Source: Alteromonas australica (GTDB lineage: Bacteria > Pseudomonadota > Gammaproteobacteria > Enterobacterales > Alteromonadaceae). From it: a stretch of 64,000 bases of DNA. Where the stretch lies: contig NZ_CP008849.1 of NCBI RefSeq assembly GCF_000730385.1, forward strand, positions 248,001 to 312,000, in the 5' to 3' direction. Below the pieces are notes generated by a model that was not told the origin of the DNA, searched no databases, and saw only the letters and a program-made list of their open reading frames with translations. Each line of letters opens with the position of its first letter. Within the stretch, counting starts at the first letter, position 1. Below are positions 59,045-63,985 of the stretch, piece after piece. A program made the position numbers and the translations under genes.

Positions 59045-59082
59045 GCCTCGATAGCTCAGTTGGTAGAGCAGCGGATTGAAAA
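59045..59082 (+). pseudogene. 5' half of tRNA-Phe (38-nt exact copy)
   Basis: Identical to the first 38 nt of the intact tRNA-Phe at 59213: acceptor strand, D arm, 5' anticodon stem and the anticodon GAA with two following A. Identity stops inside the anticodon loop. The rest of the tRNA is missing, replaced by 130 bp of unrelated DNA. It sits behind what looks like the native tRNA promoter. It cannot fold into a tRNA. It most likely marks a recombination or integration event with its crossover in the anticodon loop. Confidence 0.93.
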
Positions 59083-59100
59083 GTGCAAGCACTTCCAATC
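59074..59100. repeat. Dyad at the tRNA-fragment junction
   Basis: GATTG (59074-59078) pairs with CAATC (59096-59100), and AAGTGC (59081-59086) with GCACTT (59089-59094). The left half lies in the tRNA anticodon loop and the right half in non-tRNA DNA. This symmetry across the end of identity is what a tyrosine-recombinase core site would look like. Confidence 0.5.
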
Positions 59101-59161
59101 AGATTTACCAAGAAAGCTTTTAGAGCAATAGTTTTAAAGTTAGTAAGCACTTCGATAAAGC

Positions 59162-59190
59162 TTGCAAAGTTTTGCAAAGTTTTTTATAAA
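59162..59190 (+). promoter_or_regulatory. Promoter inside the 130-bp insert, likely drives intact tRNA-Phe
   Basis: TTGCAA (59162-59167), 17-nt spacer, TATAAA (59185-59190), 22 bp before the intact tRNA. The word TTGCAAAGTT occurs twice here and AAAGCTT three times in the insert. The intact gene thus appears to carry a new promoter. Confidence 0.55.
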
Positions 59191-59212
59191 GCTTACATAG
59201 CACAGCTTAAGT

Positions 59213-59288
59213 GCCTCGATAGCTCAGTTGGTAGAGCAGCGGATTGAAAATCCGCGTGTCCCTGGTTCGATCCCGGGTCGAGGCACCA
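59213..59288 (+). tRNA. tRNA-Phe (anticodon GAA)
   Basis: A 76-nt cloverleaf. The acceptor stem GCCTCGA pairs with TCGAGGC, with the D arm GCTCAGTTGGTAGAGC, the anticodon stem around GATTGAAAATC with GAA at 59246-59248, and the T arm with GGTTCGATCC. The encoded 3' end is ACCA. It closely matches E. coli tRNA-Phe. A terminator follows 6 nt later. Tyrosine-recombinase elements often use tRNA genes, and the DNA beyond is accessory in character. Confidence 0.98.
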
Positions 59289-59629: not shown

Positions 59630-59712
59630 TTGACTTAATTTAATTTTAGCCCCACTTTAGTTGACATTCAATTAAATTTGCATGATATTGGTTGACATAT
59701 ATCGAAATATGC
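59630..59712. repeat. Three 21-bp repeats phased at exactly 31 bp
   Basis: Copies at 59630-59650, 59661-59681 and 59692-59712 all start TTGAC and end GC, with AT-rich middles of the form TTGACwTn..AAwTwtGC. Starts are 31 bp apart each time, about three helical turns, so proteins bound to them would face one side of the DNA. The first two also share CCCACTTT just upstream. They lie in the divergent gap before the XRE-ImmA operon. They are probably operators, and the TTGACA words may double as -35 elements. Confidence 0.72.
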
Positions 59713-59735
59713 AAATTTTAAGGTTGTTTAAGGTT

Positions 59736-60398
59736 ATGAGCAGTGCTGAATTAGAGTCCCCTTTTGAGTTATGCCCCGAGTTAAATGAAGTCTTTCTGGA
59801 TGAGTTGTCATTCATGATTTTGAAGGTTGTAGAAATGACAATGCTAAATTTAAATTCGGATTTTGATGATAACTACACGAGGGAAACCTGTATTTATGGG
59901 CGTGTGAGACAATTGTTCCTGCAACTTGCACGAGACGCGAGCAAACCTTGGGTAACCGTTAAAAGTAAAACAATGGACTATGTTCCAAGCATATGTAATA
60001 TACCTGTCCGAGTTTTTAGGGACGATCCACTTAACCCTAAAAAGAAGAAGGTTTTTTTTAAAAATGATTGTGAGCAGAGTCAGCTAGCCTTACTGTTTGA
60101 AGATTTTGACACTCAGTTGGCTAGTCAGATAACTTGGCGATTATTCATTCAGGCTCCTGATAGCAATCTAGAAGATGGTGAGCTAGAAGACTTGGAAGAT
60201 GATTTTCGTGTAGTCCTAGTGGGCTTTTCTGCAATGACTGGAGAGATTCGTTCGATGTGGCAATCTAAATCAGCCTCTCGTACCGTACCATATGCTATTG
60301 ACGCTGAATTGCCAGAAGCAAATATTCTTGAAAGAAAACCTGTTAAATCAAAAGAAGTAGATACTGGTTTGGCAAATGAAAATGGAAAACAAGTTTAA
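59736..60398 (+). CDS. Unknown protein coupled to an XRE-ImmA/IrrE gene
   Basis: I do not recognise this protein. Seen: about 220 residues from ATG 59736 (the frame is open to ATG 59682). It is acidic overall, with no signal peptide or membrane span. It has a helical N-terminal half (VFLDELSFMILKVVEMTMLNL), a middle with basic NPKKKKVFFKND, an acidic run (SNLEDGELEDLEDDF), and a strand-rich end. The stop overlaps the next gene by about 23 nt, so the two are made together. By analogy with two-gene modules carrying an ImmA/IrrE protease, it could be the substrate, toxin or sensor. Start is uncertain because only a weak AAGG precedes the ATG. Confidence 0.65.
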   Translation: MSSAELESPFELCPELNEVFLDELSFMILKVVEMTMLNLNSDFDDNYTRETCIYGRVRQLFLQLARDASKPWVTVKSKTMDYVPSICNIPVRVFRDDPLNPKKKKVFFKNDCEQSQLALLFEDFDTQLASQITWRLFIQAPDSNLEDGELEDLEDDFRVVLVGFSAMTGEIRSMWQSKSASRTVPYAIDAELPEANILERKPVKSKEVDTGLANENGKQV

Positions 60399-61485
60399 AT
60401 TAAATCCCTATAGAGGAGATAAATTAAGGTTAGCTCGGTTGGCCAAAGGCTATTCACTGGAAGAGCTGGGAAACATTTTAAATGTTACTCGTCAAAACAT
60501 ACATAAAATGGAAGCAGGACAAGAGCCTACATCTGAGCAAATGCCTTTATTATGCAAAGCCTTGAATGTTGAAAATAGTTACTTCTTTACAGATCGAAAT
60601 ACACCTGTAGTAGAAGAGCAGTGCCATTTCAGAAGTTTGAAATCCAGAACTAAAGCACTGACACATACTGTAATGGCCCGAGCAGAGATCTTGGATCAGG
60701 TTATCGGAGCGGTTGAAGAATTTGTAGACCTTCCAACATTTGAGGTTCCAAATGTCGATGACCTCGATTTCAGTATTAGTGAAAGTATTGAGGTTGTCGC
60801 TGAGCGGATAAGAGATATTTGGGGGTTGGGTGATGGCCCTGTCGAAGATATAACAATTGCGGTTGAAAACGCAGGTGTAATTGTCGCAGTAGTCGAGGGT
60901 GTTGATGAAAAGGTTGATGCTTTTTCAATGTCCAGAAAGAGGCCTGTTATTATTAGAAATTCATCTAAAGAAAATCCTTGTCGGTATCGATTTGATATAG
61001 CGCACGAATTAGGGCATTTAGTGATGCATGATGGAGTGGTAACCGGTTGTAAGTTCACAGAGAAACAGGCTAATTACTTTGCTAGCGCATTTCTTATGCC
61101 GAGACGTCTGTTTTTGGCTGCTACTCAAAAGTATCCTCTGATTAGGGGGCTAAAAAGTTTAAATTGGCAAAGCTTGTTTAGCTTAAAGAGATATTTCAAA
61201 GTGAGCTTCAAGGCACTACTTTATCGAGCGAAATCTCTAGGAATCATTAATGAAGCCCAAATGAAATCTGGTTATATATATTTAAATAAGAATGGTTATA
61301 CTAAGAGTGAAGAATTAGATGACTTACTCCCTATGGAGGAGCCTAGGTTGTTGTCTGATATTATTGAAAGTATAGGAAGTTCAAAATGGCAAAAGCTTAT
61401 TCTTGAACTAGGTATTTCCGGAGAATTTATCACATCTATATTACCGAGAGTTAAAATGCCAAACAAAGCTTTATTCGTTGTTTGA
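60376..61485 (+). CDS. XRE-family regulator fused to ImmA/IrrE metalloprotease domain
   Basis: Combined DNA-binding and zinc-protease protein. Seen: a helix-turn-helix at about residues 16-67 (LRLARLAKGYSLEELGNILNVTRQNIHKMEAG in pieces), a linker, then a peptidase M78 domain. The domain has H210-E-L-G-H214 (FDIAHELGHLVMH) and a downstream KQANYFASAFLMPRRLF with the third zinc-ligand region. A further ~120-residue tail includes LNWQSLFSLKRYFKVSFKALLYRAKSLGI in pieces, typical of the family. Length is 369 residues. Relatives cleave a partner repressor on stress (ImmA/ImmR, IrrE/DdrO). Here the HTH is in the same chain and the phased repeats are its likely binding sites. Confidence 0.9.
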   Translation: MKMENKFKLNPYRGDKLRLARLAKGYSLEELGNILNVTRQNIHKMEAGQEPTSEQMPLLCKALNVENSYFFTDRNTPVVEEQCHFRSLKSRTKALTHTVMARAEILDQVIGAVEEFVDLPTFEVPNVDDLDFSISESIEVVAERIRDIWGLGDGPVEDITIAVENAGVIVAVVEGVDEKVDAFSMSRKRPVIIRNSSKENPCRYRFDIAHELGHLVMHDGVVTGCKFTEKQANYFASAFLMPRRLFLAATQKYPLIRGLKSLNWQSLFSLKRYFKVSFKALLYRAKSLGIINEAQMKSGYIYLNKNGYTKSEELDDLLPMEEPRLLSDIIESIGSSKWQKLILELGISGEFITSILPRVKMPNKALFVV

Positions 61486-61926: not shown

Positions 61927-63042
61927 TTAAGAACTGCCACCGTTTTTTAACGTGTCGTGAAGTTTTAATTTTGATTTCTCAAGAATTTTAAGTGTTCTTT
62001 CTTTAACTGCTCCGGCTAAAGATCTGTTACTACCATTTTTGAATCGTATATTTAACACCTTTATTGATAATTCGGAGCTATTGTCCAGCTTCGAGATAAA
62101 CTCCGGAAATTCATATGATATTTGACAGGAGCCGCTGCAATCATCGTAATCAAAGCTATAAGATGCCTCTACTCGATATACCTTTATATATTCATGATAT
62201 TTTTTTTGCCTAATGAAAACTGTAGAGTGAAGATTTTTTCCCTGAAGAAGTAAGTTTGTAATTTTTTCTTGCATCCACGATATATCGTCAGGGAGTGTTT
62301 GTGTTTCATCTGGACAGAACCCTAGATCCCTAGTGTCCTTAAAGTAAAGCTCGTTTGAGGTTTGTTCCTTACTAAGCTTGTTTAAAAATTTGACTCTGTT
62401 TTCATTTGTGAAATCGTTGAATCTAATTTTCCTAATCACTTCATCATTTTTAACAAAACCAGCTAATTTAAGTCTATTAACCATCTCTTTAGATATGACC
62501 GAAGCAACTTCTTTTGTCTCAGGAGACGTATGGGATAAACTTATATTAATATCCAGCTCGTCATCTATTTTACTAAATCGTACCTTACCTGAAAATTGCT
62601 TTGTATTCTTATCCCAACTTTTAGTATGGTCGGTTCTTTCTATAATGAAATCTAACTCTACTTCTCCTTCTATACTACTAACAAAGTTTGGTATACCAAT
62701 GAGTTCATAATTTGAAAATGGCTTTTTAACTAGCTCATGAATTTCATCACTTGATGGTAATATAGATAATAAATCTACTTCCGGTACACTACATTTTATA
62801 GTCTGTGTCAGAGCTTTAGGTTCTTCTTCAGTTTCACTTATATTTTGATAAAGCTCCATTAATTCATTTGGCGTAATTCCTCTTGTTACTAAGTGTGGAA
62901 TAGTCGTAGTTTTATCATCTTCACGAGTAAAAATGCCACGATTTCTTAAAATCCCTTTTAGTTCGGATTTGCTGATATTTCCGTCTGCTAAAAAATCTCG
63001 AAGAGCATCACCATACGGTAAAATATTTTTAGTTTCATCCAT
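61927..63042 (-). CDS. Partner protein of a predicted two-gene defence system (GAPS4b-like)
   Basis: About 371 residues, no signal peptide or membrane span. Seen: an N-terminal domain of about 80 residues (ILPYGDALRDFLADGNISKSELKGILRNRGIF in pieces, then TTTIPHLVTRGITPNELMELY) that reads like a winged-helix or SAP-type fold. A longer strand-rich body follows, with FDYDDCSGSCQISYEFPEF. The N-terminal pattern matches my memory of the GAPS4b N-terminal domain; this needs a profile search. I start at ATG 63042, one base after the nuclease stop, with AGAGGA 8 nt before it. An upstream in-frame start at 63084 lies inside the nuclease gene. It is AT-rich relative to the core genes. Function: unknown, probably regulator, sensor or antitoxin for the nuclease. 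Confidence 0.6.
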   Translation of the reverse strand: MDETKNILPYGDALRDFLADGNISKSELKGILRNRGIFTREDDKTTTIPHLVTRGITPNELMELYQNISETEEEPKALTQTIKCSVPEVDLLSILPSSDEIHELVKKPFSNYELIGIPNFVSSIEGEVELDFIIERTDHTKSWDKNTKQFSGKVRFSKIDDELDINISLSHTSPETKEVASVISKEMVNRLKLAGFVKNDEVIRKIRFNDFTNENRVKFLNKLSKEQTSNELYFKDTRDLGFCPDETQTLPDDISWMQEKITNLLLQGKNLHSTVFIRQKKYHEYIKVYRVEASYSFDYDDCSGSCQISYEFPEFISKLDNSSELSIKVLNIRFKNGSNRSLAGAVKERTLKILEKSKLKLHDTLKNGGSS

Positions 63043-63043
63043 T

Positions 63044-63985
63044 TTATTGTCCTCTGAAGTCAGAGTTATATGAACTAACCTCAATGCTTAAATCTTTCTC
63101 TTTAGCTTGAACAAGACCTTTGACTGTCTCTACTGTATCTTCGTGTTCGAGGGCATTATAGTCAGGAAATAACAACTTAAATTTTTTAGTGAACTCTTGA
63201 GAAACATCACTTACAAAGTTCATCAACCGTTCCAAGTTTTCTTTCGAGAATTTTTCTCTAATTACTACACAAAAAATAACACTTTTGTCTTTTTCGCTGA
63301 TTAGACGAAAAGGCAAAATGTCGGATGTTAAATACTCAACTGGTAAAGCTTTTCCATATCTTTTTAAATTTGTATCAGTGTAGTTGGCCGCGGTAAAGGA
63401 ATAGTGAAAATTAATTTCATGTTCTTTAAAACTATTCTTTAAAAAACTTATTGAATCATATATGAACGCAGCTCTTGAGTTGTCGACTAGATATATTGCG
63501 GAGAATGTCAGATTCTTATCAATCACTATATTTGCAACTTTACTAACCACATCCTGATATGAATCGTTATCATTAGTAAGCCAAAATAGTACCCCTACAT
63601 CATTCGTTCTTTTAACTCCTCTTCCATTATAATCAATGATGGTCGAGTTTCTGACTTCGGATTTAGAATAACACTCAATACAATGAGCAAGATCTTTGAA
63701 GTGCTCTCTGAATTTCGTATTAGGATGATTAGGATATGCTTTTGATGTGAATTTCACAGAACAGCATACATTATCTAAGGTGAAATCTTGTAGTTGAGAG
63801 CGTGCAGAATAAAGTATGTCCACACCGTGTGTATTTCGACCACTGCCTTTGGTCCTTTCGTGCTTTTGAGGATGTTTACATCTTATCTCAACACCGGTGC
63901 GCAACCCAGTCCATCCGATTAAAGTAAGGAACTCCTTTACAAGAGCTTCACCATGCTCGCCTACCTTCTTTGAAAATTCACCCAT
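63044..63985 (-). CDS. PD-(D/E)XK-like nuclease of a predicted defence pair (GAPS4a-like)
   Basis: A 313-residue soluble protein. Seen: an N-terminal restriction-endonuclease-like core with helix glutamates E13/E18 (GEHGEALVKEFL), D56 in HGVDILY, and S76-V-K78 in CCSVKFTS. This gives an E...D...(S)xK layout in which the usual acidic residue before xK is serine. The rest has helix and strand segments of no known type. The start ATG 63985 follows AAGGA. It is the first gene of a coupled pair and ends one base before its partner starts. The pairing and N-terminal signature recall GAPS4, an anti-phage system found in marine vibrios. The assignment is from memory and tentative; nuclease activity is plausible but unproven. 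Confidence 0.62.
   Translation of the reverse strand: MGEFSKKVGEHGEALVKEFLTLIGWTGLRTGVEIRCKHPQKHERTKGSGRNTHGVDILYSARSQLQDFTLDNVCCSVKFTSKAYPNHPNTKFREHFKDLAHCIECYSKSEVRNSTIIDYNGRGVKRTNDVGVLFWLTNDNDSYQDVVSKVANIVIDKNLTFSAIYLVDNSRAAFIYDSISFLKNSFKEHEINFHYSFTAANYTDTNLKRYGKALPVEYLTSDILPFRLISEKDKSVIFCVVIREKFSKENLERLMNFVSDVSQEFTKKFKLLFPDYNALEHEDTVETVKGLVQAKEKDLSIEVSSYNSDFRGQ

Follow-up and report, generated by a model that had tools for sequence, protein, structure and literature searches.

The described systems closest to the gene pair analysed here are GAPS4 and Rst_3HP. GAPS4 is reportedly the system named by Mahata et al. 2024 and is said to have been first described in the setting of a Gamma-Mobile-Trio island, although to our knowledge that setting is not a defining feature of the system. 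Rousset et al. 2022 (PMC9122126) described a system of three genes that lacks clear predicted domains and gives E. coli protection from P1, and from DefenseFinder naming (PMC9090908) we infer that this system is Rst_3HP.

The window, meaning the whole stretch of 64,000 nucleotides that was analysed, comes from a complete host genome of 4.31 Mb in one contig with a single copy of GapS4a. The gene pair in it is, judged by profile matches, an ordinary member of the GAPS4 anti-phage system. The best explanation overall, to which we give a probability of about 70%, is a GAPS4 system borne on a mobile element in which GapS4a would be a DNase and GapS4b its partner. The features concerned are the following.

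59213..59288, plus strand, tRNA-Phe (ARAGORN); the AT-rich island starts after this tRNA
59682..60398, plus strand, RmrT of the RosmerTA pair (PADLOC RmrT, 1.8e-39); a neighbour, not part of GAPS4
60376..61485, plus strand, RmrA of the RosmerTA defence or toxin-antitoxin pair (PADLOC RmrA, 7.8e-98; Pfam HTH_3 and Peptidase_M78, IrrE-type); not part of GAPS4
61927..63042, minus strand, gapS4b, 371 aa, predicted partner protein (NF047934, AlphaFold2)
63040..63046, minus strand, gene junction TAA-A-ATG, with the single base 63043 between the gapS4a stop and the gapS4b start (sequence)
63044..63985, minus strand, gapS4a, 313 aa, ATG...TAA, predicted PD-(D/E)XK nuclease-type protein (NF047933, AlphaFold2, PDB matches, conservation)

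The preliminary description had placed two genes one base apart in an AT-rich island, and their positions, the minus strand and a GC content of 33-36% across gapS4ab, against ~46% over most of the window, bear this out. The longest open frame of the region was 386 codons in the real sequence compared with 154 in shuffled versions (n=200). The open reading frame list gave gapS4b as a 385-aa frame with a TTG start and a 41-base overlap with gapS4a; a start at the internal ATG at 63042 fits both the family start and an AGAGGA ribosome site located just upstream of gapS4b, within gapS4a. A promoter scan returned fewer sites than in shuffled sequence.

The description's remark that the pair looks like GAPS4 is supported by the HMM search, in which both proteins passed curated cut-offs. 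GapS4a scored 370 bits against NCBIfam NF047933 (cut-off 270) over model positions 1-302 of 302 and GapS4b 395.1 bits against NF047934 (cut-off 300) over positions 1-354 of 355, and chance can be excluded since the E-values of these matches were 1e-110 or better. The genes are adjacent, co-directional and ordered a-b, and the pair resembles GAPS4 in gene order, spacing and invariant residues as well as in the cut-offs passed. It differs from GAPS4 as first described in that it lies on a different tyrosine-recombinase element rather than on a Gamma-Mobile-Trio island. The pair can look new because neither PADLOC 2023 nor Pfam holds a relevant model for either protein; GapS4a had no match in Pfam and no relative by sequence in PDB.

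An alignment of 21 GapS4a proteins was assembled from loci found in whole-genome, plasmid and contig searches and covered Gammaproteobacteria, Desulfobacteraceae, Bacteroidota, Bacillota and Cyanobacteria (at least five phyla). A further row, L031, was from a contig binned as Saccharibacteria, where a binning error is possible as the locus resembles the Bacteroidales ones. The residues E13, H53, G54, D56, S76, K78 and C105 were invariant in 21/21 proteins, and the numbering of E13, D56 and SxK78 (S76-x-K78) given earlier is correct. Window GapS4a grouped inside the family with the proteins of Shewanella, Pseudoalteromonas, Desulfobacteraceae and Ectothiorhodospiraceae (support 98/96), and its identity to the Shewanella sairae protein is 53%. 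Because Ser76 is invariant and the window protein is nested inside the GapS4a clade, the serine is, as far as the alignment goes, a signature of the family rather than a mark of divergence. The preliminary description had drawn the opposite conclusion from it, that the pair might be a divergent or new branch only resembling GAPS4, and a serine at the acid position of (D/E)XK is indeed unusual for the superfamily in general. That reading is refuted by the tree and the Ser76 invariance among aligned proteins, and with both curated cut-offs exceeded by ~100 bits we give it next to no credence.

GapS4a is rare: among the genomes sampled, proteins above the cut-off were present in 7/395 from the order, counting the host genome itself, and in 2/369 from the class. 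An alignment-based contig scan identified 19 GapS4a loci, while a single-sequence scan of genome contigs identified no relatives. No phage record carried GapS4a and no E. coli genome carried similar DNA. The a-b order was kept in Shewanella, Pseudoalteromonas, Pantoea, Ewingella, Leptolyngbya, Bacteroidales, Seinonella and other relatives. A gene for NA37, the 37-kD nucleoid-associated protein (PF04245; E 1.9e-33, 1.9e-33 and 3e-16 in the three loci tested), directly adjoined gapS4ab in eight loci (L007, L026, L028, L029, L031, L032, L033 and L035), seven of them from Bacteroidales, Bacillota and the L031 contig and one gammaproteobacterial (L007). It is possible that these loci represent a three-gene variant of GAPS4, which may help to show what GAPS4 senses; window GAPS4 has no NA37 gene. 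In three relatives (L021, L028 and L036) gapS4b seems broken by frameshift or truncation with gapS4a open, which could be decay or assembly error.

The AlphaFold2 model of GapS4a (17-sequence alignment) had a mean pLDDT of 85.8 and a pTM of 0.86, and a PD-(D/E)XK fold is confidently predicted for its N-terminal domain. The N-terminal half is ordered as helix 2-22 containing E13, strands 29-35, 52-62 (D56) and 69-80 (S76 and K78), helix 90-106 and strand 126-137. The model thus has D56 and K78 of a PD-(D/E)XK core on strands 52-62 and 69-80, with serine for the acid of (D/E)xK. When this first half was compared to PDB with VIA-align, AF1548 matched with Z 8.9 over 116 residues at 2.9 A, and other matches included McrBC, Cdn1/Can2, N.BspD6I, SduA and LmuA. 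The nuclease match is based on Z values of 7-9, near the background of such lists, and Foldseek alone puts unrelated proteins first for GapS4a; against viral models, no Foldseek match reached E 0.001. The fold match to PD-(D/E)XK nucleases nonetheless agrees with the PD-(D/E)XK-like core that had been proposed from the letters. The Mrr/AF1548, McrC, Can2/Cdn1 and LmuA groups resemble the first half of GapS4a in predicted fold, with no sequence similarity detectable in Pfam or PDB, and carry (D/E/Q)-x-K where GapS4a has S-x-K.

Residues 169-308 of GapS4a aligned in VIA-align to the RPB5-like chain 8q3k_E (Z 9.3 over 116 residues) and also to the nuclease domains of EndoMS (Z 7.1) and Cap4 (Z ~6). 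The N-terminal domain of RPB5 has a nuclease-like fold, and a link to RNA polymerase suggested by this top match was not adopted. Like RPB5, EndoMS and Cap4, the region has a nuclease-like fold in the model, but no conserved acid and lysine set of the D...(D/E)xK kind was found there in the family alignment. It is therefore probably a second nuclease-like domain that is non-catalytic.

Relatives also gave weaker matches (20-45 bits) in searches with the GapS4a model, and those examined belonged to another operon, that of PADLOC Hp1/Hp2. A retron identity of Hp1/Hp2 was considered and dropped: members of this operon carry the labels Rst_3HP Hp1, Hp2 and Hp3 in a Vibrio phage record, and no retron paper was matched. 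In profile-profile comparison with hhalign, Hp1 matched GapS4a (probability 97.5, E 6.9e-12) and Hp2 matched GapS4b (probability 84.7, E 6.7e-6), and neither window protein was matched by the PADLOC Hp1/Hp2 models at E up to 10. On these profiles GAPS4 and the three-gene system Rst_3HP are homologous, with the same gene order, and since both partners match, the two genes seem to have been inherited as a pair. GapS4a and Hp1 form separate clades (support 100/100). Rst_3HP differs from GAPS4 in its third gene, Hp3, for which GAPS4 loci have no counterpart; an Hp3 profile found nothing in the island nor in other GAPS4 loci. Further Rst_3HP operons (L063-L070) were from Vibrio, Aliarcobacter, Azospirillum and Enterobacter plasmids, a P2-like Klebsiella phage and a filamentous (Tubulavirales) Pseudomonas phage, and the third gene was present in every annotated record read among them.

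The motifs of the two families differ in a way that bears on the active site. All 14 Hp1 proteins have D-L-K and H-P-x-D with position 13 not conserved (E in six, N in three, K in two, G in two and T in one), whereas all 21 GapS4a proteins have S-x-K, H-G-x-D and E13. D-L-K of Hp1 lies two columns downstream of S-V-K in MAFFT and four in hhalign, so that the lysines are not co-aligned; from the motif and the spacing (22 residues from D56 to the lysine in GapS4a and 21 in Hp1) we infer that they are equivalent. The simplest reading of these alignments is that the helix glutamate of GapS4a would do the job of the strand aspartate of Hp1. An invariant D-L-K in Hp1 together with a free position 13 fits the replacement of the missing acid by the helix glutamate in GapS4a. 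GapS4a is probably a metal-dependent DNase with a putative active site of E13 in the first helix, D56 and K78, in which Glu13 would take the metal-ligand role of the acid replaced by Ser76. The comparison identifies target residues for mutation in each system, and if the three-gene system of PMC9122126, described without a clear predicted domain, is Rst_3HP, it would give that system a nuclease assignment.

A serine in place of the canonical acid in every GapS4a, and a C-terminal nuclease-like domain without conserved catalytic residues, would also suit a catalytically dead nuclease fold serving as DNA binder or scaffold, with defence by another route. We regard this as unlikely: a working site would be expected to show the strict invariance that E13, D56 and K78 have across at least five phyla, and E-D-(Q/S)xK sites are known in active PD-(D/E)XK enzymes, including Mrr-type enzymes (QxK) and Cfr10I (SxK with a displaced glutamate). 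If GapS4a is an active nuclease as we favour, its fold matches leave the substrate undecided, and some PD-(D/E)XK proteins of the Can2/Card1 type, which is represented among the matches, can act on RNA too. Among the nuclease matches, however, DNases and DNA nickases (McrBC, N.BspD6I and BstEII) predominate, and RNA rather than DNA as the substrate is considered improbable.

The AlphaFold2 model of GapS4b had a mean pLDDT of 75.5 and comprises a small helical domain (~1-70) and a two-lobed alpha/beta region (~72-367). The small N-terminal domain attributed to the partner in the preliminary description is present in the model as the helical domain, but at a pLDDT of ~50-60 over the first 70 residues it is too poor to name. 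Region 72-367 weakly matched Iml3/CENP-L (Z 8.9, 178 residues), and its longest match, also weak, was the DNA-ring protein RdgC (Z 7.1, 225 residues, 5.5 A), which suggests a DNA-binding partner in so far as the model can be relied on. GapS4b may be a non-enzymatic, nucleic-acid-binding partner that restrains GapS4a or aims it at infection-specific DNA, and this role is the weakest step of the proposed mechanism. Phage infection would release or aim the GapS4a governed by GapS4b, and the complex would then cut DNA of the phage, the host or both, so that phage production would stop. Alternatively, the pair could be a toxin-antitoxin module with phage defence as a secondary effect, one protein being toxic when expressed by itself and neutralised by the other. 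The tight coupling of the two genes and the nuclease fold would suit such a module, and a toxin-antitoxin-type pair, RosmerTA, lies nearby. This seems rather unlikely given a large partner of 371 aa with no antitoxin-like domain found in Pfam and two families named for anti-phage activity, although toxin-antitoxin and defence functions are not mutually exclusive.

The genomic setting agrees with the defence reading of the pair. Same-genus genomes matched the window DNA to ~59320 in a genus-wide DNA search, where the GC content drops, and the island then runs in the order tRNA-Phe, a DUF3892 open reading frame, RosmerTA on the plus strand, GAPS4 on the minus strand and genes beyond the window end. 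RosmerTA between tRNA-Phe and GAPS4 makes this a defence island. Past GAPS4 are a membrane-anchored Mrr-type endonuclease (plus strand), a NYN/LOTUS protein (plus strand), a protein with an RNase H N-terminal domain, DUF2787, DUF6641, a double-AAA ATPase and a XerC-type integrase (minus strand). RosmerTA, the Mrr-type endonuclease and the integrase are neighbours in line with a defence role, and GAPS4 is probably cargo on a mobile element integrated next to tRNA-Phe. The island is not a Gamma-Mobile-Trio because GmtY and GmtZ models were far below their cut-offs over the whole genome (best 27 bits against 340 and 18 bits against 600), so the pair is one more GAPS4 locus outside such islands.

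The same backbone was found at a different site in a same-genus genome (G1309), with seven genes at 41-82% protein identity, and there Rst_3HP occupies the place and orientation of GAPS4 beside the Mrr, NYN, AAA and integrase genes. This makes it a single cargo slot, filled by one or the other of two homologous systems. We lean slightly towards a wider reading in which GAPS4 and Rst_3HP would be two branches of one nuclease-plus-partner superfamily, with an active site rewired between D-x-K in Hp1 and S-x-K with an obligatory helix glutamate in GapS4a, which replace one another at a single position in a mobile element and have acquired third subunits of different kinds (Hp3, or NA37 in Bacteroidota, Bacillota and one gammaproteobacterium). 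What the present analysis adds is the family-wide serine signature, the homology and slot exchange of GAPS4 and Rst_3HP, and the form linked to NA37.

Several smaller observations concern the island and its ends. The backbone lies at L002 6151-12139, beyond the window end, and its Mrr-type endonuclease has membrane segments and a Zn ribbon. Past the integrase, L002 13213-16710 encodes a DUF3987 protein and a replication-initiator-like open reading frame without a Pfam match, and may represent another element, stacked within the island. No repeat of the tRNA-Phe 3' end of at least 13 bases, which would mark the far end of the island, was found within ~38 kb. At the tRNA itself, a 38-base copy of the tRNA-Phe 5' half at 59045-59082 repeats 59213-59250 with a repeat unit of 168 bases. 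The segment enclosed by this repeat is absent from most same-genus genomes, and 59045-59250 probably reflects an insertion into tRNA-Phe at its anticodon-loop point, or the remnant of one.
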